DNA of 64,000 nucleotides from Streptomyces cyanogenus (GTDB taxonomy: Bacteria; Actinomycetota; Actinomycetes; Streptomycetales; Streptomycetaceae). Under the pieces are notes generated by a model that was given only the letters and a program-made list of their open reading frames with translations, made no database searches and had not been told where the DNA came from. The translations under genes and the position numbers were made by a program. Positions 8,793-31,956 of this stretch are shown piece after piece. How positions within the stretch are numbered: position 1 is the first letter of the stretch; each line of letters opens with the position of its first letter. Location of the stretch: NCBI RefSeq assembly GCF_017526105.1, contig NZ_CP071839.1:1488001-1552000 (forward strand), written 5' to 3'.

Positions 8793-8795
8793 GTC

Positions 8796-9409: not shown

Positions 9410-9460
9410 CCGCGGTCTCTCCTTCTGACTGGCCCAACGGGCGAGATGTCGGCGCCTCGG

Positions 9461-19984: not shown

Positions 19985-20029
19985 AGTCCCGCCGTCCGGG
20001 ACGGAGGCGGGCGGCGGGACGTATCAGGG
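19985..20029. repeat. 45-bp direct repeat with hairpin, copy A
   Basis: Begins AGTCCCGCCGTCCGGGACGG and ends GGCGGGAC-GTATCAGG. The inner arms GTCCCG/CGGGAC and the outer arms GTCCCGCCG/CGGCGGGAC can each pair, so two alternative stems are possible. It ends exactly at the stop of the Cys-rich gene 20030-20242 and may act as its transcription terminator. Confidence 0.7.
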
Positions 20030-20242
20030 CTAGGCCCCGTAGCGGGGGTCGATGCCGATGTCCCCGCGAGCCAGCCGCTCAGGCTGACGGCAGACGTCCC
20101 AGTCGCAAGGCGTACCCGGTTCCGTGTGCCAGCACTGCACCGGCGGATCGTCCTCGTTGTCCGAGCAGGGAGCCTCACCGCATTTGCAGCACTGTTCTCC
20201 GACGCATCCGCAGCAACGGTCTGAGAGTTCGTCGTAAGCCAC
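20030..20242 (-). CDS. cysteine-rich mini-protein, 70 aa
   Basis: ATG at 20242 (MAYDELSD). The N-half contains nine cysteines among 28 residues (CCGCVGEQCCKCGEAPC, then a later C and CDWDVC), spaced as CC-x-C, CC-x-C and CxxxxC. Such density suggests metal binding (zinc ribbon or metallothionein-like) rather than disulfides in a cytoplasmic phage protein. A copy of the 45-bp hairpin repeat lies on each side. The function is unknown. Confidence 0.65.
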   Translation of the reverse strand: MAYDELSDRCCGCVGEQCCKCGEAPCSDNEDDPPVQCWHTEPGTPCDWDVCRQPERLARGDIGIDPRYGA

Positions 20243-20262
20243 GGCCGCCTCCCAGCACTGCG

Positions 20263-20307
20263 AGTCCCGCCGTCCGGGACGGAGAGCGGACGACGGGACG
20301 CATCAGG
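20263..20307. repeat. 45-bp direct repeat with hairpin, copy B
   Basis: Nearly identical to copy A, about 278 bases away (AGTCCCGCCGTCCGGGACGG then GACGGGAC-GCATCAGG), and again ending at the stop of the next gene (20303-20533). The pair looks like a duplicated gene-end hairpin, so each small gene carries its own terminator-like structure. Confidence 0.7.
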
Positions 20308-20533
20308 CGGCCTTGGGGCGGCCGGGCTTCACCTGGGCGGCTGCCTTGATGGTGGGCAGGTGGTAGAGCGGCCGATCGTCGTCGAGCCGCACCCGTTCGA
20401 TCTTGCCTCTGGTCTCCCAGACGCGGATGGTGCCGGGCTTCACACCGGCTACGCGGGCGGCTTCCCAGATGTCACCGAGGTCCCGCTGGTAGAGCTCGTA
20501 CAGCTCGGGGTTTGGGAAGGTCGGCACGGCCAC
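20303..20533 (-). CDS. small helix-turn-helix protein, 76 aa
   Basis: GTG start at 20533. The centre reads LGDIWEAARVAGVKPGTIRV then WETRGKIERVRL, the shape of a MerR/excisionase-type HTH with wing, followed by a basic C-terminus (QVKPGRPKAA). It is a probable DNA-binding regulator or recombination directionality-type protein. A strong hairpin lies just upstream of it (20551-20579), separating it from the previous operon. Confidence 0.75.
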   Translation of the reverse strand: MAVPTFPNPELYELYQRDLGDIWEAARVAGVKPGTIRVWETRGKIERVRLDDDRPLYHLPTIKAAAQVKPGRPKAA

Positions 20534-20550
20534 CTCCCCGGTACGCGAGA

Positions 20551-20579
20551 GCCCCCGCCGGCTCGTTCACGGCGGGGGT
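20551..20579. terminator. strong hairpin, terminator
   Basis: CCCCCGCCG at 20552-20560 pairs with CGGCGGGGG at 20570-20578 around a nine-base loop. On the leftward strand it follows the gene ending at 20661 and precedes the gene starting at 20533, so it probably ends the 22-20.6 kb operon. Confidence 0.65.
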
Positions 20580-20660
20580 TCTGGAGTGCTCTTGTGATGG
20601 GTGTTCCACCATCAATTCCGGAGGTTACAGTTTCAACGAGCAGCTAGCAAGTAGGTGCTA

Positions 20661-20831
20661 CTAGTCGTCCTCGCATTCGCAGTCCTCGGGGAGCTGCTGG
20701 CAGTAGGGGCAGCGCCAGCAGTCGCATCCGCAGACGTGGCAGCCGCCGCAGGCACATTGGCACATGCCCTCTCCACACGCTTCGGGCTCCTCGTAGTCGT
20801 CCTCAACGGCGTTGGCCTCATCGGTGTTCAC
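20661..20831 (-). CDS. cysteine-rich mini-protein, 56 aa
   Basis: GTG at 20831 overlaps the previous stop (GTGA). After an acidic start (VEDDYEEPEACG) it has about twelve cysteines, mostly in CxC and CxxC spacing (MCQCACGGCHVCGCDCWRC). That is metallothionein-like density with little room for a fold without metal. It is the second such gene within 1 kb; the two share no clear alignment, only composition. The coupling to the tau-like gene is seen; the function is unknown. Confidence 0.65.
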   Translation of the reverse strand: MNTDEANAVEDDYEEPEACGEGMCQCACGGCHVCGCDCWRCPYCQQLPEDCECEDD

Positions 20832-21097
20832 TGGGTCCTCCGATTGAACTTCTGGTTGGCTGTCGTCTCGACCGGCATATCGATGCCGCCAGCCTTCATC
20901 GCGCCTTCGAGCGCGGCCTGGGCACCACTCTCCTGCCAGGCGGCGGCGACGCGCGGGTCGGCGAAGTGGAGCCGCAGCACGCCGTCGTCGAGGGTGGGTG
21001 TGGCGTGGGCGAGGAGCATGCCGGTGACGTGCCGGCGGCGGTCGGCGGCGGCCACGATCCGCGGCCACCAGACGGGGATCGGCATGGTCAGGTCCAT
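20828..21097 (-). CDS. DNA polymerase III tau C-terminus-like mini-protein, 89 aa
   Basis: The start is ATG at 21097 (or ATG 21085, four codons on). The central stretch WWPRIVAAADRRRHVTGMLL, then ATPTLDDGVLRLHFADPRVA and AAWQESGAQAALEGAMKAG, resembles the domain at the C-terminus of actinobacterial DnaX (W..vl..v....r...lL.....v...dg..L.l.F......), minus the ATPase core. If real it could compete for or recruit host replisome subunits. The resemblance is by eye and needs a profile search. Confidence 0.5.
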   Translation of the reverse strand: MDLTMPIPVWWPRIVAAADRRRHVTGMLLAHATPTLDDGVLRLHFADPRVAAAWQESGAQAALEGAMKAGGIDMPVETTANQKFNRRTQ

Positions 21098-21390
21098 TCC
21101 CAGTTCTGGCGGGCTCGGGCGGCCCGGTGGGCGGCGTCGCCGATCTCCGCGGCGAGGCTGCCCCAGTCGGCGGGCATGAGCCGGTGCCGGGCGGCCTTGT
21201 GGAGGAGGTCGCCTATGCGGCTGGCTTCGCGGGGCGGGATGCTGGCGACGTCGGCGAAGGAGCCGTCGAACAGGTCGGCGAGCTCCCTCCACTCGCTGCT
21301 GTTCAGGGTGTTGGCGAGGTGCTGGCCGAGGTTGGAGATGGTGAGGGCGGACCGGGGGCCGCGCGCTCCGTGGCTGATGCTGATTCCCAT
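21088..21390 (-). CDS. hypothetical protein, 100 aa
   Basis: ATG at 21390 forms an ATGA overlap with the previous gene. The product (SLAAEIGDAAHRAARARQNW near the end, LGQHLANTLNSSEWRELADL in the middle) is alpha-helical and mildly basic. I recognise no family. It shares an operon with the tau-like gene downstream, with which it overlaps. Confidence 0.65.
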   Translation of the reverse strand: MGISISHGARGPRSALTISNLGQHLANTLNSSEWRELADLFDGSFADVASIPPREASRIGDLLHKAARHRLMPADWGSLAAEIGDAAHRAARARQNWEWT

Positions 21391-21614
21391 CAAGACGCCC
21401 CGTTCCGTTGCTTCCATGCTTCGTACTTGCCTTCGGCGTCGGCGCGGGCTGCCTGCTCGGTGGCTGCGGGATCGGATGTGACGATGGGTCGTCCAGTGGC
21501 GTCTTCGACGATGGCGGCAATCCAGGGGACACCGGGGGCTGTGGGGTCGTCGAGGTGGTGTGCGACTTGTTGGTAGGCGTCCCAGGCGTGGCCTTGCTGC
21601 AGGGTGACGGCCAT
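21390..21614 (-). CDS. hypothetical protein, 74 aa
   Basis: ATG at 21614. A short protein with QQGHAWDAYQQVAHHLDDPT and PWIAAIVEDATGRPIVTSD segments and an Ala/Glu-rich helical end. It shows one strand-helix domain with no catalytic motif. It is coupled to the next gene by an ATGA overlap. Role unknown. Confidence 0.65.
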   Translation of the reverse strand: MAVTLQQGHAWDAYQQVAHHLDDPTAPGVPWIAAIVEDATGRPIVTSDPAATEQAARADAEGKYEAWKQRNGAS

Positions 21615-21636
21615 GTGTTCTTCCTTTCGGTGGGCG

Positions 21637-21852
21637 TCAGACCCTTGTCGGCACGTGGCGCTGGTCGGGGTCGTGTTCGGCGTGGAAAGAGGCGGCGAGC
21701 ATGGCGCCGGTCCCACTGTTGTAGGGCGTCTTTTGGAGTTCGGGGCATCCGGAACAGACGACCCGGAACGCGTTCGCGGCGTGATCTGCTTGGGCGTAGA
21801 CGAACGAGCCGTCGGGCATTTCGAGGATCTTGCTGATGCGTTCGAAGGCCAT
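21637..21852 (-). CDS. hypothetical protein, 71 aa
   Basis: ATG at 21852. The sequence MAFERISKILEMPDGSFVYA, a CSGCPE pair and HAEHDPDQRHVP near the end suggest a small zinc-binding domain (two Cys and several His). It lies 11 bases after the DUF6197-like gene. The metal site is inferred. Confidence 0.65.
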   Translation of the reverse strand: MAFERISKILEMPDGSFVYAQADHAANAFRVVCSGCPELQKTPYNSGTGAMLAASFHAEHDPDQRHVPTRV

Positions 21853-21862
21853 GTCGGGCTCC

Positions 21863-22336
21863 TTACCGGTTGCGGTCGCTGGCGAGTTGGGCGGCGCGGC
21901 CGAGGGCGAGGAGGACGGGCCGCGGGCTGGTCTGGCGGTCGTTCCAGCTGGGGACGGTGTCGTCGGCGCCGCCGAACTCGCGCCGGATGACGTCGAGGAG
22001 GAGCGTGCACGCGTCGTCGGCCAGACGCCGGCTGCTGGCTTCGGCGCGGATGGCGCCGACGAGGCAGCGGCGGCCGTCCTCGTCTCGGCAGGCGCCAGTC
22101 GCCCAGCCGTCGGTCTCGATGCGGACGGCGGCCCGGTGGAGGAGCGCGGCGAGCGGGGTGCGATACGGGCCGGGGGCGGCCGGGGGCCGGGTGTCGACGG
22201 GGAGGCGGATGACGTCGGCGAGGTCGAGCGGTGTGGTGGCGATGCGGGCATCGATGGCGAGGGGTGCGAGCGCGAGCCGCTCGTCGAAGGTGAGGGCCCG
22301 GGGCGGCCTTGTCGTGGGGGCAGTGGTCGTGGTCAT
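21863..22336 (-). CDS. DUF6197-like protein, 157 aa
   Basis: ATG at 22336. The core TPLAALLHRAAVRIETDGW, ACRDEDGRRCLVGAIRAEA and a WNDRQTSPRPVLLALGRAA block reproduce a layout common to a family of small actinobacterial proteins (GW..G..D..GR.CL.GAIR...WND). The function of that family is unknown. It opens the operon that runs to 20661, after a hairpin at 22376-22418. Confidence 0.75.
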   Translation of the reverse strand: MTTTTAPTTRPPRALTFDERLALAPLAIDARIATTPLDLADVIRLPVDTRPPAAPGPYRTPLAALLHRAAVRIETDGWATGACRDEDGRRCLVGAIRAEASSRRLADDACTLLLDVIRREFGGADDTVPSWNDRQTSPRPVLLALGRAAQLASDRNR

Positions 22337-22375
22337 GTGGGTCTGCTCTCTGCGCGGTGACGTGTGGATGGGTGG

Positions 22376-22418
22376 CGGGGCGCCCCTGGGTTGCTGGCAG
22401 GCTTCGAGGGGCGCCCCG
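22376..22418. terminator. long-stem hairpin
   Basis: CGGGGCGCCCCT at 22376-22387 pairs with AGGGGCGCCCCG at 22407-22418, a 12-bp stem with a 19-base loop, placed just after the stop of the leftward gene ending at 22425. It likely terminates or attenuates that transcript. Confidence 0.65.
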
Positions 22419-22424
22419 GCGGCA

Positions 22425-22592
22425 CTACTTGCTGCTGGCGTAGGTGGTCTTCGCCATGACGCGGCTCATGGCGACGATGTCGGCGTCGTTGCCGCTCTGG
22501 GTGATCTCGATCGTGATCTGGTTGATGGTGTCGTCGTCGCCGCACTTCCAGGCGTCGGTGAAGCGGCGGACGGCGTCGGACTGCGTGGTCAT
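22425..22592 (-). CDS. small acidic protein, 55 aa
   Basis: ATG at 22592 has a good AAGGAGAG site. The peptide (MTTQSDAVRRFTDAWKCGDD, then INQITIEITQSGN and IVAMSRVMAKTTYASSK) is mixed helix-strand and bounded downstream by a strong hairpin. No family is recognised. It resembles short Spd-adjacent proteins only by location near the transfer-like genes. Confidence 0.65.
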   Translation of the reverse strand: MTTQSDAVRRFTDAWKCGDDDTINQITIEITQSGNDADIVAMSRVMAKTTYASSK

Positions 22593-22635
22593 GAGCTCTC
22601 CTTGGTGGTTGGTGGGTCGGGTTGTCGGGTTGCGG

Positions 22636-22992
22636 CTATCGGCGGCTGCCGGCCTTGGCGCGGTCGCCGCCGCGGAGCCGGTCGAGGACGCCCTGCGAGG
22701 TGGGGCCGGTAACCTGCGGGCCGGGGCTGCCGATCTCGCGCATCTCCGGCTTCCGCTCGTAGACGGTCCCCTCCTGGGCGAGGAGGCCCTCGGCGGAGAG
22801 GTGGCCGGTCATCCAGTTGCCGGTGATCGGGGACCGCCAGTCGAAGGTGTGGGCGGCGTACAGTTCGTCGGCCTCGTAGGGCGCGATGTTCTTCGCGGTC
22901 TTACGGATGGTGTAGACGGTCGTGCCCTTGCGGATGAAGCGGTTGAGGTCCTTGGCGCCCTTCTTGGTGGGCTCCCAGCTGCGTCCGGCCAT
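22636..22992 (-). CDS. hypothetical protein downstream of the translocase, 118 aa
   Basis: ATG at 22992. The sequence MAGRSWEPTKKGAKDLNRFI, KGTTVYTIRKTAKNIAPYEA and YAAHTFDWRSPITGNWMTGH suggests a small beta-rich domain with a basic C-terminus. It lies on the far side of the repeat cluster from the TraB/FtsK-like gene. The function is not recognised. Confidence 0.65.
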   Translation of the reverse strand: MAGRSWEPTKKGAKDLNRFIRKGTTVYTIRKTAKNIAPYEADELYAAHTFDWRSPITGNWMTGHLSAEGLLAQEGTVYERKPEMREIGSPGPQVTGPTSQGVLDRLRGGDRAKAGSRR

Positions 22993-23030
22993 GAGTGATC
23001 TCCTGTCTGATGCGTGGTGGTTTGTTCCCG

Positions 23031-23195
23031 CTGCTCAGGTCTGCTCAGCGGGCGTTAGTGCAGGTGAGGGCTGCTCACTGCTCTGATCAGGGGCTGCTCA
23101 GAGCAGTGGGTGAGCAGGCCGTGAGCAGCAGCGTGAGCGGCTGTGACCTGCTGGTTTGAGGTCTGATCAGGGCTGAGCAGACCCTGATCAGGGGT
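23031..23195. repeat. cluster of CTGCTCA / CTGATCAG repeats, candidate clt-like locus
   Basis: In the 221-base gap after the translocase gene, CTGCTCA occurs at 23031, 23041, 23071 and 23094; its complement TGAGCAG at 23111, 23122 and 23174; and CTGATCA(G) at 23083, 23163 and 23184. One pair forms CTGCTCA-GAGCAG back to back. Streptomyces TraB proteins recognise clusters of short repeats (clt/TRS) close to traB, so this arrangement fits such a site; an origin or operator cluster is the alternative. Confidence 0.6.
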
Positions 23196-23213
23196 ACATA
23201 CTCCGCGTAACGG

Positions 23214-25268
23214 TCACAGCAGGGCGGTCAGCCTCGCGAGCTTGTAGCCACGCGGGTTCTGCTCATCACCGATCCGGCCGAGCGTCTCCGGGGAGCCGAC
23301 GCTGGGCTTCAGGGCCGCCTTCAGCTCGTCGACGGTCCACTCCAGGTAGGCCTCGTCGAAGTCGCGCAGGGCCAGCAGGAGCGCCTCGGTCTTCATCCGG
23401 TCGACGCGCTCCTTCTCCATCACCGCGACCGCGTCCTCGATGAGGATCCGTGCCTCGCCGTCGGCTGTCGCGCCCTCGCTCGGGTCGGCGTCGCACAGGC
23501 GGAGCAGCTGCTCCCAGGTGAGGAGCTTCGGCAGCGGCATCCCGATGTCGGGCAGGTCCACCTCGGCTGTGGCGCGCAACGAGTCCTGGTCGGGGTCGAC
23601 CAGGCCGTCCGCCTTCCGCTCGACGGCGAGCTTGCGCAGCGTGTCGGACGGGGTCGGGTGGATGGCGTACTCGATCGGCTCGTCAGCCATGCCGGGTACG
23701 CCCTGGACGAAGATGTGGCCGGCGTCTTTAGGGTCGGTGTCGGTGGCTGGGGACAGCTTGTGCGGCAGCCAGCCCTCGGCGACCGCGCCGTCGCCGAACA
23801 CGGCGCGGGTGTCGCCGACCTTGCAGGGCCCGACGGCCTTGAGGGCGATCATCTGGGCGATGTTCTCGCCCAGGTACAGCTTGGTGCCGCCCTGTGAGGC
23901 GATGATCAGCGTGACGGCTTCCTTGCGGCCGACGAGGAGGAGCTCGAAGGCGAGCCGCTTGGCCAGCTCGGAGCCCTTCGGGAACTCATCGAAGATCACG
24001 GTGAAGTGCGGGCGCTGCCTGCTGATCTTCCACTTCTTGCCCATGCCGAGCTTCTTCCGGAGCCGGGCCCGAGCCTTGGACAGCATCAGCAGGAACATGA
24101 GCACCGCTTCGATCTGCTCGTGGCTGCGCGCTGTGATCCGAACGGCGTCGTGCAAGTCCTCCAGGCCGTCGCCGTGCGGGTCGAGGTCGATGGTGATGTT
24201 GTCGTAGCAGGCGGTGGTGATCTCGCCGATGGCCTGCAGCATGCCGGTCTTACCGCCGCCGGATGCGGCAACCACGAGGCCCATGACACCGGCGAACGCC
24301 GCATCCAGCGGGTCGCCGCCGACCGAGGTGCCGAGCCGGGACTTGTCCGTGATGCTGATGGACTTCGGGGCACGGTAGGGCAGGCCGGGCGCGGTGGCGA
24401 ACGGGTCGCCCTCGACGAGGCGGAGGATGGCGCAGGCGCGCCGCTCCTTCAGCGGCTGCGGCCGGACGCCGTTGGTGGGCAGGTCGAACCGGGTCTCCAG
24501 GCCGCCGGCCTTGGCGATGATGGCCTCGGGGGTGCCTTCGCTGACGCGGACCTTGCACTGCCAGCCCCACGGCTGCCGCTCCATGTCCCACACCTCTACT
24601 ACGGGCACGCCCTCGGCGACCATTGCGAGGAGCACGCACACCGCGGCCTGCTGCGGGGTCTCGGCGCGGCGGATCGGGAACGGCCGGGCACCCTCGGGCA
24701 GGTCGTCGAGCGTGACCGAGCCGTGGGCGCGGACGGTCTCCTCGGCGGGAAGGCCGAGCACCTCATCCGCGTCGGGCTGGCTGCGGTTGCGGCCGTGGAA
24801 GGCGCCGAGCCCCCAGACGCCGAGGCCGGCGAGCAGGTCGATCCAGAGGCTGCCGGTGACGGCGCCGAAGGACACTCCCCCGGCCACCGCTCCGGCTACG
24901 CCGGCGGTCTTGCCGGTGTACGTGAGGCGGTGCCGCTTGTACTCGGCTCGCAGCTCGGCCCGCCGCTTCTTGGCGGCGGCTTCCGCGTGCATGTCGCCTT
25001 CGGCCTCTCGGACCGCCTGGCTGGCGGTGGCGATCATCTGCGGGTAGTCGTCGTGGAACCTCTCCAGCCACAGCCGGCCGAGCTGCCGGTAGCCGCGGAA
25101 GGTGCGCGGGAGCAGGGTCAGGGAGGCGATCCGGTTGGTGCGCTCGGCGATGAAGCGCACCGACTCCAGCGGCTTCCGGCCGGCCGGCTCGTCCTTGAAG
25201 ACCGGGGCCGACTCGATCGACGGGACGAGGGTGAGTGTGGCCCGTTCCTCGGGCAGCGGCATGGCCAT
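23214..25268 (-). CDS. TraB/FtsK-like DNA translocase, 684 aa
   Basis: Residues 1-120 are soluble and helical; 123-156 hold two hydrophobic segments (GVAGAVAGGVSFGAVTG and DLLAGLGVWGLGAF) that would anchor it in the membrane. The motor has Walker A AASGGGKT near 334-341 and Walker B FTVIFDEF near 422-429, with a sensor-like LIIASQGG near 454. A C-terminal domain follows (residues 600-684) and could read repeat sequences. Size and layout match conjugative TraB/FtsK-SpoIIIE translocases of Streptomyces plasmids and AICEs, which move double-stranded DNA between hyphae; a phage gene of this sort is unusual. The start is the first of two in-frame ATGs after GAGAGGA. Confidence 0.85.
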   Translation of the reverse strand: MAMPLPEERATLTLVPSIESAPVFKDEPAGRKPLESVRFIAERTNRIASLTLLPRTFRGYRQLGRLWLERFHDDYPQMIATASQAVREAEGDMHAEAAAKKRRAELRAEYKRHRLTYTGKTAGVAGAVAGGVSFGAVTGSLWIDLLAGLGVWGLGAFHGRNRSQPDADEVLGLPAEETVRAHGSVTLDDLPEGARPFPIRRAETPQQAAVCVLLAMVAEGVPVVEVWDMERQPWGWQCKVRVSEGTPEAIIAKAGGLETRFDLPTNGVRPQPLKERRACAILRLVEGDPFATAPGLPYRAPKSISITDKSRLGTSVGGDPLDAAFAGVMGLVVAASGGGKTGMLQAIGEITTACYDNITIDLDPHGDGLEDLHDAVRITARSHEQIEAVLMFLLMLSKARARLRKKLGMGKKWKISRQRPHFTVIFDEFPKGSELAKRLAFELLLVGRKEAVTLIIASQGGTKLYLGENIAQMIALKAVGPCKVGDTRAVFGDGAVAEGWLPHKLSPATDTDPKDAGHIFVQGVPGMADEPIEYAIHPTPSDTLRKLAVERKADGLVDPDQDSLRATAEVDLPDIGMPLPKLLTWEQLLRLCDADPSEGATADGEARILIEDAVAVMEKERVDRMKTEALLLALRDFDEAYLEWTVDELKAALKPSVGSPETLGRIGDEQNPRGYKLARLTALL

Positions 25269-25279
25269 GGCGGGTCCTC

Positions 25280-26566
25280 TCAGTCCTTCTTCTCGGAGGC
25301 CTTCTTGGTGGCGTTCAAACGGCGCTTGGTCTCGCCGTGGGCGCGCCTCGCGAGGGGGTGGTAGGGGGCCGTGTCGCCGGGCGTGCGGCGGGGCGGAACG
25401 GGCTTGTACGAAGACCGGCGCGGAGAGCCGTTAATTTGGATCGCACGCTGCGCGTTCGCGGTCTTGCTGACGGTGTTCACCGAGCGGCTTTCGCGGGCCA
25501 GCTCGACGCGCTTCGCGTTCATGTTGCGGGTGCGGATGATGTCGACGGAGTCGCCCGGCTCGCAGCCCTCGATGTCGACGTGCGCGCGGATCCAGATCGG
25601 CTCGGTCACGGTGGTCTCGCCGAGCGCAGCCGCAAGCTTCAGGGCGTGCGCCCACACCTTCGGGAAGTCGTTGGCGCGGTTCTCGGCGAGCTGCTTGAGA
25701 CGCTCCTCCTCGGCCTGCTTGGCAGCCTCCCGTTCGGCGGCGCGCTGTGCCTCTTCGGCGGCCTTCCGTGCGGCCTCGGCGCGTTCGGTCTTGCGCTGTG
25801 CGCGGCGCTGCCGCCATGTCAGCTTTCCGTCGCGCTTGCGGATCTGGCCGTGCTCGTGGAGGTCGTACACGCCGGGGCCGGCGATGGATGCGAACGCGGT
25901 GCCGACCGCGGTGGCCGGGTCGAAGGCGTGCAGCCCGTGCCACAGGTTGATGGCGGCGGCGATGAAGGCGAGCATCCAGGCGATGAGCCGGTAGTGCCAG
26001 TGCGGCCGGTGGCCGGCGGCGGCGGCTCGGGCGCCCTTGAGGACGACCCACGCCCCACCTTCGAGCATGAGCGGCGCGGCCATCAGCCACAGCGCGTTCG
26101 GGTTGTAGAACGCGGCGATCTGCACGGGCATGGCGACGATCGCGCAGACGGCGTAGAACCGCAGCGCGTACTGGCGCCACTGCTCCTCGGCGGCGGCGAT
26201 CTCGGCGGCCTTCGCCGCTTCGGCCTGCTCCTGCGCGGCGGCCTTCTCCTCGACGTCACGGGCGGCGCGCTCCTGCTCCTCGCGCTCCCGGTTGAGCTTG
26301 GCGATGCGGGCCTCGCGGGCGGCCTGCTCCTCACGGGCACGGGCCTCGGCCTTGTCGTTGGCGATCTTCTGCTTGCGAGCTTCCTCGGCGGCCCTGATGC
26401 GCTCGGCCTCAGCCTCTGCCTCGGCCTTGATGCGGGCGGCTTCGGCTTCGGCCTCGGCGCGGGTCCGGATCGCCTCCGCCTCGGCGTGCGCCACCGGGTC
26501 GTACTCGAAGCGGGGCTCGGCGGGCAGCGGCGTGCCGTTGACCCGTTCGACGGATGCGGCGGTCAC
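25280..26566 (-). CDS. DUF2637-like membrane protein with long coiled coils, 428 aa
   Basis: GTG at 26566 after GAGGA. Residues 20-130 are an Ala/Glu/Arg-rich coiled coil; about 140-245 hold up to four membrane helices (YAVCAIVAMPVQIAAFY, LWLMAAPLMLEGGAWVVL, LIAWMLAFIAAAINLWHGL, GTAFASIAGPGVYDL), the pattern I know as DUF2637; a second charged coil and a basic tail follow. DUF2637-type proteins accompany TraB in Streptomyces conjugative elements, probably in plasmid spread. It lies 11 bases upstream of the translocase, an obvious functional pair. Confidence 0.75.
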   Translation of the reverse strand: MTAASVERVNGTPLPAEPRFEYDPVAHAEAEAIRTRAEAEAEAARIKAEAEAEAERIRAAEEARKQKIANDKAEARAREEQAAREARIAKLNREREEQERAARDVEEKAAAQEQAEAAKAAEIAAAEEQWRQYALRFYAVCAIVAMPVQIAAFYNPNALWLMAAPLMLEGGAWVVLKGARAAAAGHRPHWHYRLIAWMLAFIAAAINLWHGLHAFDPATAVGTAFASIAGPGVYDLHEHGQIRKRDGKLTWRQRRAQRKTERAEAARKAAEEAQRAAEREAAKQAEEERLKQLAENRANDFPKVWAHALKLAAALGETTVTEPIWIRAHVDIEGCEPGDSVDIIRTRNMNAKRVELARESRSVNTVSKTANAQRAIQINGSPRRSSYKPVPPRRTPGDTAPYHPLARRAHGETKRRLNATKKASEKKD

Positions 26567-26587
26567 GGGGATCAGTCCTCTCTGCGG

Positions 26588-26752
26588 TCAGCTGGCCTTG
26601 ACGCGGGGGCGCCGGCGGATGTGGTCGCTGGTGGTGCTCGGGGTGCAGCCCTGGACGAGGCTGTCGCCGGGGACGCTGGTGCGGACGGGCGCGGTGTCCT
26701 GCGGTCGTCGGCTGTCGTCGGTGCGGGCGCCGTGCGCCTTGTCCCGTGCCAT
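26588..26752 (-). CDS. small basic protein, 54 aa
   Basis: ATG at 26752 forms an ATGA overlap with the upstream membrane protein gene. The peptide is Arg/Ser/Thr-rich (ARTDDSRRPQDTAPVRTS) and ends basic (HIRRRPRVKAS). It is probably disordered. The function is unknown; the location suggests it belongs to the transfer-like gene set. Confidence 0.55.
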   Translation of the reverse strand: MARDKAHGARTDDSRRPQDTAPVRTSVPGDSLVQGCTPSTTSDHIRRRPRVKAS

Positions 26753-26940
26753 CAGGCGACCGCCTTCCGGTTTCGGTGCCAGACGATGGCGCCGAGGCCG
26801 AGCCAGACCGGGCCCGGGATCAGGCCGACGATCACGGCGGCACCGGTGAGCGCGGCGGCGATCGGGGCCGCAGCCGGCGGCCACAGACCCACGGCGATCA
26901 GGTAGAGCCCCAACAGGGCGACGGCGATGATGCGGAGCAT
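26752..26940 (-). CDS. small membrane protein, 62 aa
   Basis: ATG at 26940. Two hydrophobic helices (LRIIAVALLGLYLIAVGLW and ALTGAAVIVGLIPGPVWL) with a short basic end (HRNRKAVA). Small two-helix proteins near traB in Streptomyces plasmids are often Spd (spread) proteins. The length is consistent, but the family link is by context only. Confidence 0.65.
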   Translation of the reverse strand: MLRIIAVALLGLYLIAVGLWPPAAAPIAAALTGAAVIVGLIPGPVWLGLGAIVWHRNRKAVA

Positions 26941-27033
26941 GGCGACCTCTTCGGGGTCGAGACGGATGGGGGTTGGCTGATCGATGGCCAGGGCCCGCGT
27001 GCGAGACGCGGACCGAGGTCGACGGTCAGCGGG

Positions 27034-27216
27034 TCAGTGCTGCTTGCACTTGCCGCGGGTGCAGCCGGTGTCGATGTGCCGGCGGACGGGGGCGATCGCT
27101 GCATTCGCGAGGGCGTCACCGGCCCGGCCGCCCTTCTCGCCTCCGACCTTCTTGCCTGCGCGATGCAGAGCAGCGGCGGCGCTGTCGAGCTTCTCGGCGG
27201 CCTTGCGTCCGAACAT
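27034..27216 (-). CDS. small basic Cys/His-ending protein, 60 aa
   Basis: ATG at 27216. The Ala/Lys/Gly-rich body (KLDSAAAALHRAGKKVGGEK) is followed by HIDTGCTRGKCKQH, a possible metal site. It resembles small proteins in Streptomyces plasmid transfer regions by composition only. Confidence 0.6.
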   Translation of the reverse strand: MFGRKAAEKLDSAAAALHRAGKKVGGEKGGRAGDALANAAIAPVRRHIDTGCTRGKCKQH

Positions 27217-27256
27217 GAGCTGGTCCTTTCGGTAGGTGAGTGGGTTGGTGGTGCGC

Positions 27257-27302
27257 GCCCCGGGCCGGATTCGATCCGGCACCCTCGCGGCTGGGCCGGG
27301 GC
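27257..27302 (-). other. tRNA-like minihelix structure (uncertain)
   Basis: On the minus strand GCCCCGG pairs with CCGGGGC (7 bp), and the latter is stacked directly on a hairpin GCCGG-ATCGAAT-CCGGC, giving an acceptor/T-arm-like 12-bp stack; there are no D or anticodon arms, only 15 unpaired bases. The sequence GCACCACCA follows one base later. It is intergenic (27217-27308). It may simply be a transcript hairpin. Confidence 0.3.
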
Positions 27303-27308
27303 TGGGGG

Positions 27309-27512
27309 TTAGCGGTTGCCGCCGCGCCAGCGGGACACCTTGTCGGCGGCCTTGTTGGCGGCACCGTTCAGCCGCAGGTACTCGGGCGTCTCGTGGTCGA
27401 CCCCGGCGGCCTCCTCCCGGCGCTGGTTGGCGTGGAGGGCGGCGTCCGCCTCACGGAGCGCCTTGACGTTGGCGCGGCGCTCGGCGCGGTTCTTTCCTTC
27501 AGTGCGGGCCAC
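27309..27512 (-). CDS. small charged helical protein, 67 aa
   Basis: GTG at 27512. KNRAERRANVKALREADAAL and ANQRREEAAGVDHETPEY suggest one or two charged helices; no family recognised. It lies in the chain of short genes leading to the transfer-like operon. Confidence 0.6.
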   Translation of the reverse strand: MARTEGKNRAERRANVKALREADAALHANQRREEAAGVDHETPEYLRLNGAANKAADKVSRWRGGNR

Positions 27513-27588
27513 GATGGGCTCCTTCCTGGGCTGGGACTGTCCCGGCTCCCCTCACCGCCCGTGCGAGACGGGCGGATCGGGCAGCTGG

Positions 27589-27699
27589 TCAGTCCTCCTC
27601 GTCGTCGTCCGGACCCCAGATCTGCGGCGGGCAGTCGTCCATGGCCTCGGGGTCGCGGACGGTGCCGGGCGGCAGCCGCTCGTACTCGGTGGCGGCCAT
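27589..27699 (-). CDS. acidic mini-protein, 36 aa
   Basis: ATG at 27699 overlaps the previous stop (ATGA). The peptide starts MAATEYERLPPGTVRDPEAM and ends with a run of Asp/Glu (PDDDEED). The start-stop coupling and codon use support it; the function is unknown. Confidence 0.5.
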   Translation of the reverse strand: MAATEYERLPPGTVRDPEAMDDCPPQIWGPDDDEED

Positions 27700-27938
27700 C
27701 AGGCGGCGGCCGGGTAGTCGAAGCCGTCGAGCTCGTCGACGAGGCCGGGGTCGATGGCGGCGGCGTGGTCCCGGATCAGGCCGGCCACGTCGGTGCGGCC
27801 GGTACGGAGGGCGGTCGCGTAGTCGACGAACAGGGCGGCCACGTTCGCGTCGACGGCGTCGCCGACGGTGATCGTGGACCGGAAGTGGCGACCCAGGTCG
27901 GTGACGGCAAGATCAGCGCTGGACAGGAACGGAGACAT
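27699..27938 (-). CDS. hypothetical protein, 79 aa
   Basis: ATG at 27938. The Ala/Val/Asp-rich helical protein (VDANVAALFVDYATALRTG, VAGLIRDHAAAIDPGLVDEL) has no recognisable motif. It is coupled to the 36-residue gene after it. Confidence 0.6.
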   Translation of the reverse strand: MSPFLSSADLAVTDLGRHFRSTITVGDAVDANVAALFVDYATALRTGRTDVAGLIRDHAAAIDPGLVDELDGFDYPAAA

Positions 27939-27993
27939 GACGGATCTTCCTCACTGGTCGGATGGGGCTGGGATGGGGTGGATGTCTGGCGGG

Positions 27994-28368
27994 TCAGGCG
28001 ATGGCCCGGTACTCGTCGACCAGGGCGGCGAGACCGGTGAGGGTGTCCCGGGCCTTTTTCATCAGCCCGGCCTGCTCGTCGCCGCTGGTTTCGGTGGAGA
28101 CGCCGAGGTAGATGGCTGCGTCTTCCAGGAATTCGGCTTCGACAATGCCGGCGTCGTACATGCGGCAGGACGCGGTGCTGATCTGGTTGACGAAGTCGGC
28201 CAGGGTGGTGGCCGGGGCTTGCCCGATGACGGCCGCGACGGTGTCGGCGTGCTGGGCGATCAGCTGGTCGACGGTGACGTCGCAGTGGCTGTCACAGCCG
28301 TCACCGTCGTGGATGGTGCAGCGGTACCGGTGGACGTGCTCGCTGGCCGTCTGGGCGGAAGCGGGCAT
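27994..28368 (-). CDS. hypothetical protein with Cys/His-rich N-terminus, 124 aa
   Basis: ATG at 28368. Residues 12-32 (HRYRCTIHDGDGCDSHC) could bind a metal; the rest is helical (VDQLIAQHADTVAAVIGQA, then MKKARDTLTGLAALVDEYR). No family is recognised. Independent of its neighbours, with about 50-100 bases on either side. Confidence 0.6.
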   Translation of the reverse strand: MPASAQTASEHVHRYRCTIHDGDGCDSHCDVTVDQLIAQHADTVAAVIGQAPATTLADFVNQISTASCRMYDAGIVEAEFLEDAAIYLGVSTETSGDEQAGLMKKARDTLTGLAALVDEYRAIA

Positions 28369-28470
28369 GACGGATCTCCTCGGCTGGTCAGGCTGGGATG
28401 GGACGGTGGTGCCGCGCTGGCGGACTGGCGGGGGATGGATGGATGCCGCCAGCGCGGCGGCTATAGGGGG

Positions 28471-28632
28471 CTAGCGCACGTGCAGGTGCGCGCAGCGGTC
28501 GCGCCAGTTCAGGTGGATCGGGCAGGTCACCCGCTGCTCGGCCGGCACCTGCCGCGCCGTCTCCTGATACAGGCGCAGCACCAGGTCGTCGGATGCGTCC
28601 GCGGGGATCCGGGGCGCCGCGGTGGCGGTCAC
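28471..28632 (-). CDS. small protein with Cys-His end, 53 aa
   Basis: GTG at 28632 overlaps the upstream stop (GTGA). The sequence ASDDLVLRLYQETARQVPAE is followed by a C-x(9)-C-x-H-x-H end (TCPIHLNWRDRCAHLHVR) that may bind zinc. No family is recognised. Confidence 0.6.
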   Translation of the reverse strand: MTATAAPRIPADASDDLVLRLYQETARQVPAEQRVTCPIHLNWRDRCAHLHVR

Positions 28633-28973
28633 CGGGCGGCCTCCTCGTCGCCCATTGACGGGTAGATGCTGGCGCGGATCGCGCCGCGGACACCGTCGCG
28701 GTCGCCGTGCCGCCAGAACTTGGCGTACAGGCGGGTCACACCATCCGAGTCGACCCGCTCCGGCATCACGTCGGCGTCCAGATACTGGGTCCACGCCGCG
28801 AACGCGGCCCGCTGCTCGGCCGGCGTCGACGTCAGCGAGTCGACATCCCCGACCAGTGCGCCGGACACGGGGATCGACCAGGAGACGGCAGGCAGGTCGA
28901 CCTTCAGGAACTCACCGAGTACCCGGTACGCGGCTCGCTGCCAACGCCGCTTGTAGGCCTCAGAGACGCTCAC
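28629..28973 (-). CDS. hypothetical protein, 114 aa
   Basis: GTG at 28973 overlaps the upstream stop. It opens YKRRWQRAAYRVLGEFLKVD, continues with strand-like VSWSIPVSGALVG, and has a basic helix near the end (YAKFWRHGDRDGVRGAIR). The alternation suggests a compact domain of unknown role in the operon read leftward from the GntR-controlled promoter. Confidence 0.6.
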   Translation of the reverse strand: MSVSEAYKRRWQRAAYRVLGEFLKVDLPAVSWSIPVSGALVGDVDSLTSTPAEQRAAFAAWTQYLDADVMPERVDSDGVTRLYAKFWRHGDRDGVRGAIRASIYPSMGDEEAAR

Positions 28974-29251
28974 CGGTCCACCTCGATCAGGTGCAGCTGG
29001 CCGGCGGCGGCGAGCACGGTGCGGGAGGCGGCCATCACGTCCTGCGCGAGAACCAGCGAGTCGAACTCGGCGCCCGTCAGGTCGCGAGTGTCCATCTCGG
29101 CGGACAGTTCGGCGGTCCGGGCCGAGGCCACCTCGTAGCGGACGATCGCACGGACGACATCCGGGGCGGCGAGCGCCAGCTCCAGGCGGCGCATCACGTC
29201 GACGGCGGCCGGCGGCAGCGGGGCGGTGGGGGTGAGGGCAGGCGCGACCAT
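28970..29251 (-). CDS. first gene of the leftward plasmid-like operon, 93 aa
   Basis: ATG at 29251, with the divergent GntR gene upstream and a promoter overlapping its palindromic operator. The product is helical (VDVMRRLELALAAPDVVRAI, LAQDVMAASRTVLAAAGQLH) with no known motif. Because it leads the operon it is likely controlled directly by the GntR regulator. Confidence 0.65.
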   Translation of the reverse strand: MVAPALTPTAPLPPAAVDVMRRLELALAAPDVVRAIVRYEVASARTAELSAEMDTRDLTGAEFDSLVLAQDVMAASRTVLAAAGQLHLIEVDR

Positions 29252-29323
29252 GGCGAGGTTCCTTCCTCAAGGCATAGGGAGGCTGGGGCCGCCGTGTCGT
29301 CGAGCTCCGGCGGTGCGAGAATG

Positions 29324-29353
29324 ACGGTAGACCGGTGGTCCACCGGTCGTCAA
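29324..29353 (-). promoter_or_regulatory. leftward promoter overlapping the GntR operator
   Basis: On the minus strand, TTGACG (29353-29348) and TACCGT (29329-29324) are separated by 18 bases. The spacer is almost exactly the 17-bp palindrome 29331-29347, so a bound repressor would sit between -35 and -10. Confidence 0.6.
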
Positions 29354-29362
29354 CCGGTTGAC
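29331..29362. promoter_or_regulatory. two palindromic operators for the GntR/KorA-like regulator
   Basis: ACCGGTG-GTC-CACCGGT (29331-29347) and the perfect 14-bp palindrome GTCAACCGGTTGAC (29349-29362) lie side by side between divergent genes, sharing ACCGGT half-sites. GntR-family dimers bind such palindromes. The placement over both promoters suggests autorepression and repression of the leftward operon. Confidence 0.7.
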
Positions 29363-29387
29363 CCACGGCGGTGAGTCGCCCTATGGT
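29359..29387 (+). promoter_or_regulatory. rightward promoter of the GntR gene
   Basis: TTGACC (29359-29364) and TATGGT (29382-29387) are 17 bases apart, close to the housekeeping consensus. The -35 overlaps the second palindrome. The GntR ATG follows at 29423 after AAGGAG. Confidence 0.65.
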
Positions 29388-29422
29388 CAAGCACCAACCC
29401 AGCGAAGGGAGAGGAAGGAGCG

Positions 29423-30142
29423 ATGCTTGGATATGCCGAAATCGCGACCCACTTCAGGCGGCAGATCGCCGATGGCGAGCTGAACCCCGGGGACGAGATG
29501 CCGTCGTACAACAAGGCCGCCGAACAGTTCGGGGTCAACCGAACGACGGTCATCAGGGCCTACGACCTCCTCAAGACGGAAGGGCTCATCGTCAGCCGCT
29601 CCGGAGTGGGCACCGTCGTCGCGGCGCGCCCCGCTGTAGTCATCAGTGGCGTCGACCGGCTCGACCGGTTGCACCGAACCGGACGACGCTACGGGGCTGG
29701 CGAGGACTCGACAGGCCATCGCGTCATGCGGCGCTCGGTCGTCGACGGGCGCGTATGCCAGGCGCTCGACGTCGAACCGGGCGAAGAGGTCGTCATCCGC
29801 ATTCGCACGTTCCGGCAGGACGGCCGGCCGACCAGTGTCGGTGTCTCGGTCTACCCGCCGCGCACTGTGGCGGAGGTGCCCGAGCTGGCCGAGGAGGAGC
29901 GGATGGAGCGCTACTTCGGCGATATCTACACCGAACGCACGGGCCGCGAGGTCACCAAGGGGCAGAGGACGGCCCACGCTCGGCAGGCATCGCAGGACGA
30001 GATCGACGCGCTTCAGCTCGATGTGCCCGCGCACATGGCTGTGGCCGTGCTCGTCACGAACGTGACCTTCCACGACGACAAGGGTCCGCTCGGCTATTGG
30101 GAGGACGTGTACGCCCCCGGGGAGCAGATCCCGGTGTCCTAG
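29423..30142 (+). CDS. GntR/KorA-type transcriptional regulator, 239 aa
   Basis: Residues 1-70 form a GntR winged helix (MLGYAEIATHFRRQIADGEL, then EQFGVNRTTVIRAYDLL, EGLIVSRSGVGTVV); residues 90-235 form a UTRA/HutC-like ligand domain (RVCQALDVEPGEEVVIR, PRTVAEVPELAEEE). Regulators of this subfamily (KorA, KorSA) control transfer and maintenance genes in Streptomyces plasmids and AICEs. It has its own promoter and palindromic operators at 29324-29387 and is divergent from the leftward operon that leads toward the TraB-like gene. Confidence 0.9.
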   Translation: MLGYAEIATHFRRQIADGELNPGDEMPSYNKAAEQFGVNRTTVIRAYDLLKTEGLIVSRSGVGTVVAARPAVVISGVDRLDRLHRTGRRYGAGEDSTGHRVMRRSVVDGRVCQALDVEPGEEVVIRIRTFRQDGRPTSVGVSVYPPRTVAEVPELAEEERMERYFGDIYTERTGREVTKGQRTAHARQASQDEIDALQLDVPAHMAVAVLVTNVTFHDDKGPLGYWEDVYAPGEQIPVS

Positions 30143-30152
30143 AAACGCGAAC

Positions 30153-30176
30153 GGCCGGGCGTCGCCACGCCCGGCC
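30153..30176 (+). terminator. hairpin after the GntR gene
   Basis: GGCCGGGCGT (30153-30162) pairs with ACGCCCGGCC (30167-30176) around a four-base loop, ten bases after the GntR stop, followed by TGTTCTG. A likely terminator. Confidence 0.75.
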
Positions 30177-30242
30177 TGTTCTGCCAACCGCGAGTCGCCA
30201 CTCGCGATCAGTACCCCATCCGTTCAGAGAAGAGGTTCACCC

Positions 30243-30536
30243 ATGACCTTAACGCAGTCCAAGGCCGCTGCCCAGCGCAATCCCCCGGTCGACCACCTGA
30301 TGGATGCCCCGCTCGCCGATCTGCTGACGGAGTACAGCGTCGACGTGTCGACGCTGGAGACGGACCCGGGCTTCACCGGTGGCGCCTACGTCCGGGCGGA
30401 CGGCACCCTGCTGTTCGTGCGTCCGGCGGGCCAGCCGGAGGCGGAGTGGGAGATGATCGCCCGCTCGATGCTGGGCCGCGTGCTGCGGGTGCCACTGCCT
30501 GAGCTGCCGAGCCTGTACGAGCTGACCGAGCTGTAG
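30243..30536 (+). CDS. small prophage protein with a TTA codon at position 3, 97 aa
   Basis: ATG at 30243 after GAGAAGAGG. The second and third codons are ACC TTA (30249-30251), a codon that in Streptomyces needs the bldA tRNA. The protein (VDHLMDAPLADLLTEYSVDV, GGAYVRADGTLLFVRPAGQP, RVPLPELPSLYELTEL) looks like a compact globular domain of unknown function. Flanking hairpins isolate it as a one-gene unit. Confidence 0.75.
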   Translation: MTLTQSKAAAQRNPPVDHLMDAPLADLLTEYSVDVSTLETDPGFTGGAYVRADGTLLFVRPAGQPEAEWEMIARSMLGRVLRVPLPELPSLYELTEL

Positions 30537-30551
30537 CTCATTTGCGCGCCT

Positions 30552-30580
30552 GGGGCGCCTCGCTGTGGCGGGGCGCCCTT
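30552..30580 (+). terminator. hairpin after the TTA gene
   Basis: GGGCGCC (30553-30559) and GGCGCCC (30572-30578) form a stem followed by TTTC, 16 bases after the stop. A probable terminator. Confidence 0.65.
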
Positions 30581-30643
30581 TCACTGCTCGCTTTTCTCTA
30601 CCCTCCTACACTGGCTGACGCCCCACGAAAGGAACCGCTGCTC

Positions 30644-31033
30644 ATGCGCCCCGCCGATTACCGCGACTTCCTGGTTGACGTGCTGAAGAACACCCCTGAC
30701 GTGCAGAAGGTTGACGTCTGGGAGGGTGGCCCGTACCCGTATGCGCTGGCTGTGACGGCGGCCGGCCGTGAGCAGCGCTGGCAGATCATCGGCCAGCTGG
30801 CGGAGGGTGCGAAGCATGATCATGCGACGGCTGCTGTGGAAGGTGCGCCGGCCTCATTCCAGGCCGCGCCTGTGAGTGCTACGCCGGACGCGTGGCTGGC
30901 AGGTGTGATCGGCGCGGCTGAGTCGGCGGACACGGAGCGGATCGACGTGTGGTCGGCACGGGAGGGTGACCAGCGCAAGGGGCTGACGGTGTTCTTCCAC
31001 AACGGGGAGCGTGCCTTCGTGCGCCTGGTCTGA
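30644..31033 (+). CDS. hypothetical prophage protein, 129 aa
   Basis: ATG at 30644, with an AAAGGA about 10 bases upstream. MRPADYRDFLVDVLKNTPDV, YALAVTAAGREQRWQIIGQL and GLTVFFHNGERAFVRLV suggest an alpha/beta domain with two repeated halves (VDVWEGG then IDVWSAREG). No family is recognised. It has no TTA codon, unlike both neighbours on this strand. Confidence 0.7.
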   Translation: MRPADYRDFLVDVLKNTPDVQKVDVWEGGPYPYALAVTAAGREQRWQIIGQLAEGAKHDHATAAVEGAPASFQAAPVSATPDAWLAGVIGAAESADTERIDVWSAREGDQRKGLTVFFHNGERAFVRLV

Positions 31034-31102
31034 CCCCCTTCCGGCTGTCTCGCTGCAGGCGCATGGTGCGCGTGAGTGATCCCGTCGAGTGAGGGGGCCA
31101 GC

Positions 31103-31255
31103 GTGCACAGTCAGTTCGATCCGTCACGGTTAGAGGCGGCGTGTTCGGAGTGTGGGGCGTGGGTGGGTGCGGAGAAGGGGCAGCCGGCCGCGCATCACCA
31201 GAAGCCGGACGGCAGCCGGGAGACATGCCCAGGGAGTGGGCAGCCGACCCAGTGA
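31103..31255 (+). CDS. zinc-ribbon-like mini-protein with a TTA codon, 50 aa
   Basis: GTG at 31103 after GAGGGGGCC. The peptide holds ACSECGAW and HHQKPDGSRETC, so two cysteines, paired His and a later cysteine could bind zinc. Codon 10 is TTA (31130-31132), again bldA-dependent in Streptomyces. The transcript meets a leftward gene at a shared terminator. The function is unknown. Confidence 0.6.
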   Translation: MHSQFDPSRLEAACSECGAWVGAEKGQPAAHHQKPDGSRETCPGSGQPTQ

Positions 31256-31262
31256 ACGACGA

Positions 31263-31294
31263 AAGGCCCCGACCGCACTCGCGGTCGGGGCCTT
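31263..31294. terminator. bidirectional terminator between convergent genes
   Basis: AAGGCCCCGACCGC (31263-31276) pairs perfectly with GCGGTCGGGGCCTT (31281-31294), a 14-bp stem with a 4-base loop. A on one side and T on the other make it usable from both directions; the genes on either side converge here. Confidence 0.85.
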
Positions 31295-31296
31295 CG

Positions 31297-31956
31297 TCAT
31301 GCGGCTTGGGTGGCGACGGCGAGAGCGATGAGAGCGTGGTGCCCGTAGTCGCTGCCACAGCCCCTGCAGTGGCGGATGGGGCTGTCGAAGTGGAACTTGA
31401 TGCGGGTTCCGCAGGGGCAGATCGCCGAGAGCGGGCGTGGCGGCACAGCTCCGATGATCAATGCTTCGCAGGTGCCTCTGATCATGGTGAGTTCTTCGGC
31501 GAAGCTGTTGATCGCCTCGTGCTTGCGGACGGCGATGTCGAGGTTGAAGCGCAGCGTGGCGACAGCCTGGTCCATCCGGTACTGGGGGCGGACGGCCTGG
31601 CAGCTGGTGGCGTACCCGCGGTGCTCCCAGTCCCGAACCCATTCCTCCAGATCGTTGACGAGTCCACCGTGCGCGGACTGGCTGAGCGGCTCCATCCGGG
31701 CGGGTATGGGCGCCGTCTTGCTGCCGGAGACGCGGGGCCCGCCGGCGCTGGTGCCGGGCTCCAACTCGCCGGTGAGCGCGGTGAACAGGCCGGAGACGAG
31801 TCGGCGCCCGTGTTTGGTGTCCTGCCAGAGGGGCGGCCCGGCGAGTGCGGCGAGGTCGGCGTCGATGTGGTTCTGGCAGGGGCGGCAACAGTAGCGGTCC
31901 CACTCGTCGTCGAACAGGTCGTTGCGACAGACGATGCATGCGGCGGGCGCGTCCAT
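31297..31956 (-). CDS. zinc-finger-containing hypothetical protein, 219 aa
   Basis: ATG at 31956. Two Cys clusters are visible: ACIVCRND with YCCRPCQNHI at the N-terminus, and CPCGTRIKFHF with RHCRGCGSDYGHH at the C-terminus; the middle is helical (VATLRFNLDIAVRKHEAINS). It is probably a nucleic-acid-binding protein with zinc at both ends. Phages of actinobacteria carry many such proteins without known roles. Confidence 0.7.
   Translation of the reverse strand: MDAPAACIVCRNDLFDDEWDRYCCRPCQNHIDADLAALAGPPLWQDTKHGRRLVSGLFTALTGELEPGTSAGGPRVSGSKTAPIPARMEPLSQSAHGGLVNDLEEWVRDWEHRGYATSCQAVRPQYRMDQAVATLRFNLDIAVRKHEAINSFAEELTMIRGTCEALIIGAVPPRPLSAICPCGTRIKFHFDSPIRHCRGCGSDYGHHALIALAVATQAA

Follow-up and report, generated by a model that had tools for sequence, protein, structure and literature searches.

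The DNA studied here is a stretch of 64,000 nucleotides from Streptomyces cyanogenus (NZ_CP071839.1, positions 1,488,001 to 1,552,000 of the forward strand), called the window below. It lies across a prophage in which a divergent GntR gene is followed leftward by nine small genes, a gene for a DUF2637-like protein, a translocase gene and then a 221-bp array of short repeats. We favor, with moderate confidence, the reading that these parts form a single-protein transfer module of the TraB type, which has its own clt-like site and is carried by a family of temperate siphophages integrated in Streptomyces genomes. The module and the genes on its 3′ side are composed as follows.

21863–22336, minus strand: small gene conserved downstream of the module
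22636–22992, minus strand: small gene after the array, kept in many related phages
22993–23213, no strand: putative clt-like array in the non-coding gap of 221 bp directly 3′ of the translocase gene
23214–25268, minus strand: FtsK/TraB-type DNA translocase, 684 aa (open frame, PHROG 12531, model fold)
25280–26566, minus strand: DUF2637-like membrane/coiled-coil protein, Spd-like candidate, 428 aa
26588–29251, minus strand throughout: run of small genes between the GntR and DUF2637-like genes, at 26588, 26752, 27034, 27309, 27699, 27994, 28471, 28629 and 28970
26752–26940, minus strand: small membrane protein within this run, 62 aa, with a strong hydrophobic helix
29330–29348, no strand: perfect palindrome of 19 nt, candidate GntR operator
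29349–29362, no strand: perfect palindrome of 14 nt, candidate GntR operator
29423–30142, plus strand: GntR-UTRA regulator (E values 1.5e-17 and 6.5e-12), divergent from the putative transfer operon, a KorA-like position

The array and the genes beside it

The array is built of CTG(C/A)TCAG octamers in a dyad arrangement. Ten cores of the form TG(A/C)TCA or TGA(G/T)CA fall within its 221 bp, whereas the remaining 63,779 bases of the window hold 33; single-base shuffles of the gap contained 0.1 of these hexamers on average and never more than 2 (2000 shuffles). The spacings between the cores (10, 30, 12, 11, 16, 11, 42, 10 and 11) are mostly near helical multiples, and the motifs switch direction at the dyad center near 23105, with one orientation to the left and the opposite one to the right. 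The dyad z is 4.9, compared with at most 3.5 in 20 shuffles, and folding of the region as single-stranded DNA gave a z of −5.7, a value as low being reached in 0 of 200 shuffles. The tandem octamer pair has its only exact match in the 8.77-Mb genome at the array, and other places need two mismatches. The outer boxes, 92 bp apart, are TGACCTGC at 23144–23151 and, with one mismatch, GCAGGTGA at 23060–23067. In sequence and position, 22993–23213 thus has the makings of a cis-acting repeat site (clt). In the Streptomyces plasmid pWTY27, the corresponding place is taken by clt, the loading site of Tra, which extends over 16 bp of traA itself and 159 bp next to it, contains repeats and is bound by TraA (PMC3583192). 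It is above all this array, of which the original prediction had made no mention, that argues for a transfer module.

The 684-residue TraB/FtsK-type translocase of the original prediction is borne out, since its frame matches the PHROG family 12531 ("FtsK/SpoIIIE-like") with an E value of 5e-68 and its model has the fold of the FtsK motor. The profile searches proposed at that time gave a divided answer, because beside the PHROG hit no FtsK model was matched in Pfam (E up to 0.1, PF01580 included) or in NCBIfam (E up to 0.01); a sequence search of solved structures also returned no match at E 1. The AlphaFold model (31 sequences) has a mean predicted local distance difference test score (pLDDT) of 69.6, with values mostly of 75–95 in the motor. 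It aligned with FtsK motor domains at a VIA-align Z of 24.9 (root-mean-square deviation [rmsd] 4.1, 330 residues) and with TcpA at a Z of 23.2 (rmsd 8.7, 302 residues), and the similarity to pIJ101 TraB is distant but real (hhalign probability 95.5, E 1.3e-8). An alignment of pIJ101 TraB with the product of pFRL1 (NC_010851) 7913–10231 was set aside, since the latter is not certain to be a TraB. The RecA motor has Walker A at residues 335–341 and the DE pair at 427–428; G337, K340, D427 and E428 are invariant in two alignments, and K340, D427 and E428 in an alignment of 31 rows. Going by sequence and model, the protein is a translocase with an FtsK/SpoIIIE-type RecA motor whose Walker motifs are intact. 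The ratio of nonsynonymous to synonymous substitution (dN/dS), at 0.26–0.41 in comparisons with six relatives, indicates purifying selection, although the estimate is a rough one in DNA this rich in GC. Residues ~605–684 are read as a predicted winged-helix domain: the C-terminal 89 residues, modelled alone, gave a confident fold (pLDDT 90) of helix-helix-helix-strands layout, and winged-helix entries such as Rex were among the structural matches, the best of which had a Z of 7.0.

The neighboring genes agree with what had been foreseen for them. The product of 25280–26566 and the protein of plasmid pFP1 that is annotated as DUF2637 align over 118 aa (28%, pairwise E 5e-15), though a Pfam DUF2637 match was absent at E 0.1, and small membrane proteins are represented in the same-strand run of small genes, most clearly by the helix encoded at 26752–26940. 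In the listed phage loci of the clade of L058, the DUF2637-like protein is 61–86% identical in its membrane core, and the translocases are only about one third identical to that of the window; conservation of this core despite diverged translocases suggests that parts of the module are exchanged or are under different constraint. A GntR/KorA-like regulator with palindromic operators is likewise present in the form of the GntR-UTRA gene and the two perfect palindromes, which sit between it and the leftward operon. A relative at L028, 84% identical, has a nearly identical palindrome pair beside its gene, and the regulator of pIJ101 also gives the family names GntR and UTRA. From their sequences, the gene and the candidate operators are consistent with a KorA-type repressor.

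Relatives on plasmids and phages

The order of divergent GntR, small genes, DUF2637 and translocase recurs on the pFP1-type plasmids (NC_006912; NBC_00285, WAC 01438 and Streptomyces lunaelactis pSLUN2), whose translocase is 33% identical to that of the window over the match. Their arrays have the same outer GCAGGTCA/TGACCTGC boxes, but the octamer is of the CTCTAC type, unlike that of the window. Virion genes are not annotated in the stretches of these plasmids that were fetched, and pFP1 is typed as mobilizable by MOB-suite. The NBC_00285 translocase (L005:18930–21521) matches FtsK_gamma at its N-terminal and not its C-terminal end (residues 20–73, E 2.2e-18). In the systems of pWTY27 and of pSVH1 and pIJ101, a single FtsK-like Tra protein reads short repeats in cis with its winged-helix end (PMC3583192, PMC4170104), and the cis site of pWTY27 lies directly 3′ of traA, as the array does in the window (PMC3583192). 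However, these are plasmids and not phages, their repeats differ from those of the window, and the sequence similarity to pIJ101 TraB is distant.

The element pZL12 (phage ZL12) resembles the window in that a head-tail operon is followed by an FtsK-like gene, a membrane protein, small genes and a divergent GntR gene, whose product is 47% identical to that of the window over the matched stretch. Conjugal transfer of pZL12 needs a tra gene and adjacent genes (PMC3583192). It is annotated with ParA/ParB and called a plasmid-phage, whereas the element in the window is integrated. Actinomycete integrative and conjugative elements (AICEs), which are defined by Int, Rep and Tra (PMC3218068), are comparable in another respect: those of the pSAM2 and SLP1 kind are also integrated and have a tyrosine integrase and an FtsK-like transfer protein, but the other genes of the element in the window are those of a virion-forming phage. 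No Rep of the RepSA, RepAM or Prim-Pol type was found among the proteins scanned, which were part of the prophage genes. We therefore rejected "AICE" as a name, given the dominance of virion genes and the lack of an AICE Rep among those proteins. The earlier description of a plasmid- and AICE-like gene set accordingly keeps its plasmid-type half, to which gene order, fold, TraB similarity, the GntR gene with its palindromes and the array testify; its AICE-like half is not established.

Large Streptomyces phages such as Wofford, Karimac and their kin have a homologous motor (34–38% identity over 55–59% of the query among the best 30 records). Wofford differs from the window in that no DUF2637-annotated neighbor and no array 3′ of the translocase were seen. 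Relatives of the translocase occur on 46 plasmid records and 91 phage records. A phage-only FtsK family lacking TraB relatives, the outcome that the original prediction had set against itself, was rejected, considering these abundant plasmid relatives.

The outer boxes are widely shared. Of 58 non-redundant relatives (after removal of 6 duplicate loci), 36 have GCAGGTC and GACCTGC as a convergent pair in the 400 bp 3′ of the gene, against 6 of 1937 control pieces taken from the same loci. The copy in the window is not among the 36 because of the one mismatch in its second box, but the 92-bp span is kept. Phage arrays and those of pFP1-type plasmids have this pair in common. The 13 plasmid loci read comprise 4 with the exact pair (all pFP1-type, two of them near-copies), 6 with a single box and 3 with none. 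The spans of the pair cluster at 81, 92–93, 104 and 114 bp, that is, in helical steps of ~11 bp, as if both boxes need the same helix face. The octamer varies by clade, being CTG(C/A)TCA in the clade of the window and CTGCTCG, CTGCTA or CGTGACG in others; on plasmids it is CTCTAC (pFP1-type) or CGATCGG-like (L009, L101 and L106). The shared box suggests, as far as sequences go, a second, conserved recognition step, of which we found no description in the parts of the literature read.

Residue 662 of the translocase, the X of a P-x-X-L-G motif, partially covaries with the octamer and behaves as a recognition position would. The residue table has 73 rows, 18 of 91 loci having been dropped as duplicate, overlapping or mis-started, and 37 relatives have a readable motif, near-identical ones still among them. 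Truncated frames at L075, L078, L082 and L084, which probably arose from a start set within the upstream gene, were discarded. T at 662 accompanies arrays mostly ending in TCA in 24 relatives and sparse TCG-ending arrays in 4; the six relatives with another residue (P or G) all have TCG arrays, none has TCA, and 3 of the 37 have neither ending. Residue and last base agree in 30 of the 34 informative relatives, with 4 exceptions (Fisher p 1.6e-4, from a test that ignores kinship and for a rule spotted before being tested). In the tree, the change of residue and octamer is seen within each of two phage clades, which have only about one third identity to each other. Q at 662 accompanies CTGCTA arrays, clearly in L048 and weakly in L038, and K in L039 fits neither pattern. 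The L039 translocase is 70% identical to that of the window in its N-terminal 168 residues and diverged in the remainder, which goes with a CCGGTCG repeat, and it looks like a joint swap of motor, wing and array.

Among 392 Streptomyces genomes, 35 have a relative of the translocase at E 1e-20, in 38 places. In 23 of these (22 genomes), a terminase (phrog_9) or portal (phrog_12) lies within 21 kb on the same contig; 13 places are not phage-linked, and 2 are on contigs under 5 kb. At least 22 of the 392 genomes (5.6%) thus have a phage-linked translocase, and all of these counts are lower bounds because no more than three top candidates were scored in each genome. On one contig (G367:C111), equal-scoring copies of translocase and terminase lie 89.9 kb apart (60678–77864 and 150559–167745), either tandem prophages or an assembly duplicate. 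IMG/VR gave 21 loci for the translocase of the window and 6, 16 and 7 for three diverged relatives, with some contigs recurring. The phage isolates in GenBank that have a relative are phages of Streptomyces, nearly all of ~130 kb among the rows listed. In a quick tree, from which two further near-copies were dropped, phage and plasmid translocases are interleaved. The clade of the window has 29 rows; one of these (L046) is unlinked, and all others come from phages or viral contigs. The pFP1 plasmids and Wofford adjoin another phage clade (support 97; the branches of pZL12, pIJ101 TraB, L039 and Wofford are flagged as long).

The prophage that carries the module

The module is part of a 60.7-kb insertion that begins 11.4 kb before the left edge of the window and ends at window position 49405. 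A 104-bp perfect direct repeat marks its attachment (att) sites, at window coordinates −11440 (attL) and 49302 (attR). The flanks join at the 104-bp core in two relatives, which represent the empty site, and the element is therefore a 60.7-kb integrated prophage. Terminase, portal, capsid, tape measure, integrase, a repressor candidate and att sites make up the gene set of a temperate tailed phage, and the element is a complete integrated temperate siphophage. Its main phage features in the window are as follows.

2515–7026, minus strand: tape measure protein (phrog_1533, E 1.2e-95)
13083–14345, minus strand: major capsid protein (phrog_10, E 7e-86 for the longer frame; start uncertain)
14622–15293, minus strand: head maturation protease (phrog_80, E 2e-34 for the longer frame; start uncertain)
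15331–16545, minus strand: portal (phrog_12, E 2.8e-55 for the longer frame; start uncertain)
16996–18366, minus strand: terminase large subunit (phrog_9, E 3.5e-64; start uncertain)
35832–37154, minus strand: DnaB-like helicase, phage replication region (phrog_19, E 2.3e-29 for the longer frame)
47013–47579, plus strand: helix-turn-helix regulator (Xre-type), candidate lysogeny repressor
47920–49218, plus strand: tyrosine integrase
49302–49405, no strand: attR core, 104 bp identical to attL, within the 3′ end of an acyl-CoA dehydrogenase gene

The head-tail module of the original prediction is thus real in its genes but misplaced, as they lie outside the 20000–31300 interval given for it, from the terminase at 16996–18366 to the tape measure at 2515–7026. 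Besides the DnaB-like helicase, the prophage has an exonuclease gene. As to plasmid-maintenance genes, a ParB-like match at 38903–39637 is weak (E 0.0066), and the prophage may additionally have a transient plasmid form. In addition to the tyrosine integrase, the prophage has near its left end (L002:13860–14468) a gene whose product, starting MALVGLVRVSTDKQNVDRQ, resembles a serine resolvase. Window positions 19985–20006 and 20263–20284 hold the two copies of a perfect direct repeat of 22 bp, AGTCCCGCCGTCCGGGACGGAG, which contains an inverted repeat. The frames 20828–21748, 28622–29374, 29371–30246, 29387–30187 and 31130–31939 are mechanical open reading frames and were not retained by gene calling.

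Proposed transfer of phage DNA and its alternatives

Considering the pFP1 gene order, the FtsK/TcpA fold, the TraB similarity, the GntR gene with its palindromes and the clt-like array, we suggest that the module is likely, by its sequence, a plasmid-type transfer module, and a function in transfer is probable by analogy. In the mechanism that we propose, the translocase would be a membrane-associated motor of the FtsK superfamily; its C-terminal winged helix would read the short repeats of the adjacent array, the phage clt, and the protein would load there and drive double-stranded DNA of the phage through the membranes of septa or those between donor and recipient, assisted by the DUF2637-like membrane protein. 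The divergent GntR protein would repress the module. Binding of the array through the C-terminal domain and pumping of double-stranded DNA are taken over from the work on pWTY27 and TraB (PMC4170104, PMC3583192). We further infer that the pumped DNA would be the phage genome, that excision would come first and that the DNA would arrive in other hyphae, so that the phage would spread through the mycelium, perhaps into neighbors, without lysis, besides forming virions. It is a speculation that about six octamers per half would suit one hexamer each.

A wider form of this proposal, which we put forward tentatively and hold to be somewhat less probable than its opposite, is that widespread integrated Streptomyces phages are dual-mode elements, which form virions and also conjugate as double-stranded DNA by means of a phage-borne clt with an address code. 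The clt would then consist of two inverted halves, with clade-specific octamer blocks around the GCAGGTCA box shared with plasmids, and two translocase rings would load on it facing each other. The octamer would be the address code, changed together with a few winged-helix residues in phages and plasmids.

Several observations weigh against the transfer reading. The exact outer box pair is absent from the genome of S. cyanogenus itself, its right-hand box having one mismatch. The membrane anchor that had been claimed for the translocase is weakly supported, with a Kyte-Doolittle peak of 1.43 within residues 123–157, where pLDDT is low. The C-terminal winged-helix call comes from a model whose best structural matches have a Z below 8, and Foldseek with this domain model gave no match at E 0.001. 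The Tra protein of pZL12, the nearest precedent, is very distant (pairwise E 6e-5, hhalign E 4.7e-10), and the octamer array was not seen 3′ of pZL12 tra in the stretch read. By hexamer count, the phage Wofford (L006) and the plasmids L007, L008 and L010 show no array, and 16 of 67 relatives do not beat 20 single-base shuffles per row on dyad symmetry. The GntR gene near translocases on phage contigs is on the same strand in 6 of 12 distinct loci and divergent in the other 6. Lastly, beside the kinship and hindsight that burden the test on residue 662, L017, L032, L034 and L035 break the rule; these four have S at residue 659, where the six other members of their subclade that were examined have A or G, a distinction made post hoc.

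The best-surviving alternative, which we regard as unlikely, is that the module acts within the mycelium only, moving or segregating phage DNA across septa or into spores, with no mating between mycelia. The same anatomy would serve this purpose, the array would give sequence-specific loading, and motors of the FtsK superfamily are established to clear septa also (PMC3218068). On the other side, the closest plasmid arrangements are transfer modules, and the sequence holds nothing that separates spread from mating. Much less probable is that the array consists of iterons and serves as an origin of replication or for partition, with the translocase its incidental neighbor. Short repeats with dyad symmetry are typical of iterons too, and pWTY27 has an iteron with a long inverted repeat (PMC3583192). 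However, the array lies 3′ of the translocase on phages and several plasmids and a long way from the DnaB-like gene at 35832, its octamer varies with a residue of the translocase, and in pWTY27 the iteron and clt are separate, the clt being the one beside traA (PMC3583192). Slightly less credit still is due to the view that the translocase is a common phage "moron" or an FtsK-like protein of the lytic cycle without a role in transfer; PHROG 12531 is filed under host takeover, and large Streptomyces phages such as Wofford have relatives of the protein without the array, but the phage relatives in the clade of the window retain the array, and the same gene set is found on plasmids without phage genes annotated nearby. 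A role of the array as packaging site of the phage, terminator or operator is very improbable, since the same design occurs on plasmids and the array follows the translocase and not the terminase, even though it occupies a non-coding gap before late-side small genes, a few kilobases from the terminase. For the same reasons, plasmid sharing and association with the translocase, neither a packaging site nor an iteron was retained as the principal interpretation of the array.

Returning to the transfer module on an integrated phage, the combination of phage and conjugation is already known in kind, given the precedent of pZL12. What we judge to be new is an integrated phage family with arrays of this design; a literature search, covering titles and the openings of abstracts and few subscription journals, turned up no integrated Streptomyces prophage described as carrying a TraB/clt module. 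Gene transfer by phages and gene transfer by conjugative elements are usually discussed as distinct processes. The changes of octamer and wing residue from clade to clade are natural variants for how a translocase selects DNA. A temperate phage with a TraB-like motor, a regulator and a clt-like address could colonize the mycelium without lysing it, which would suit a multicellular host.

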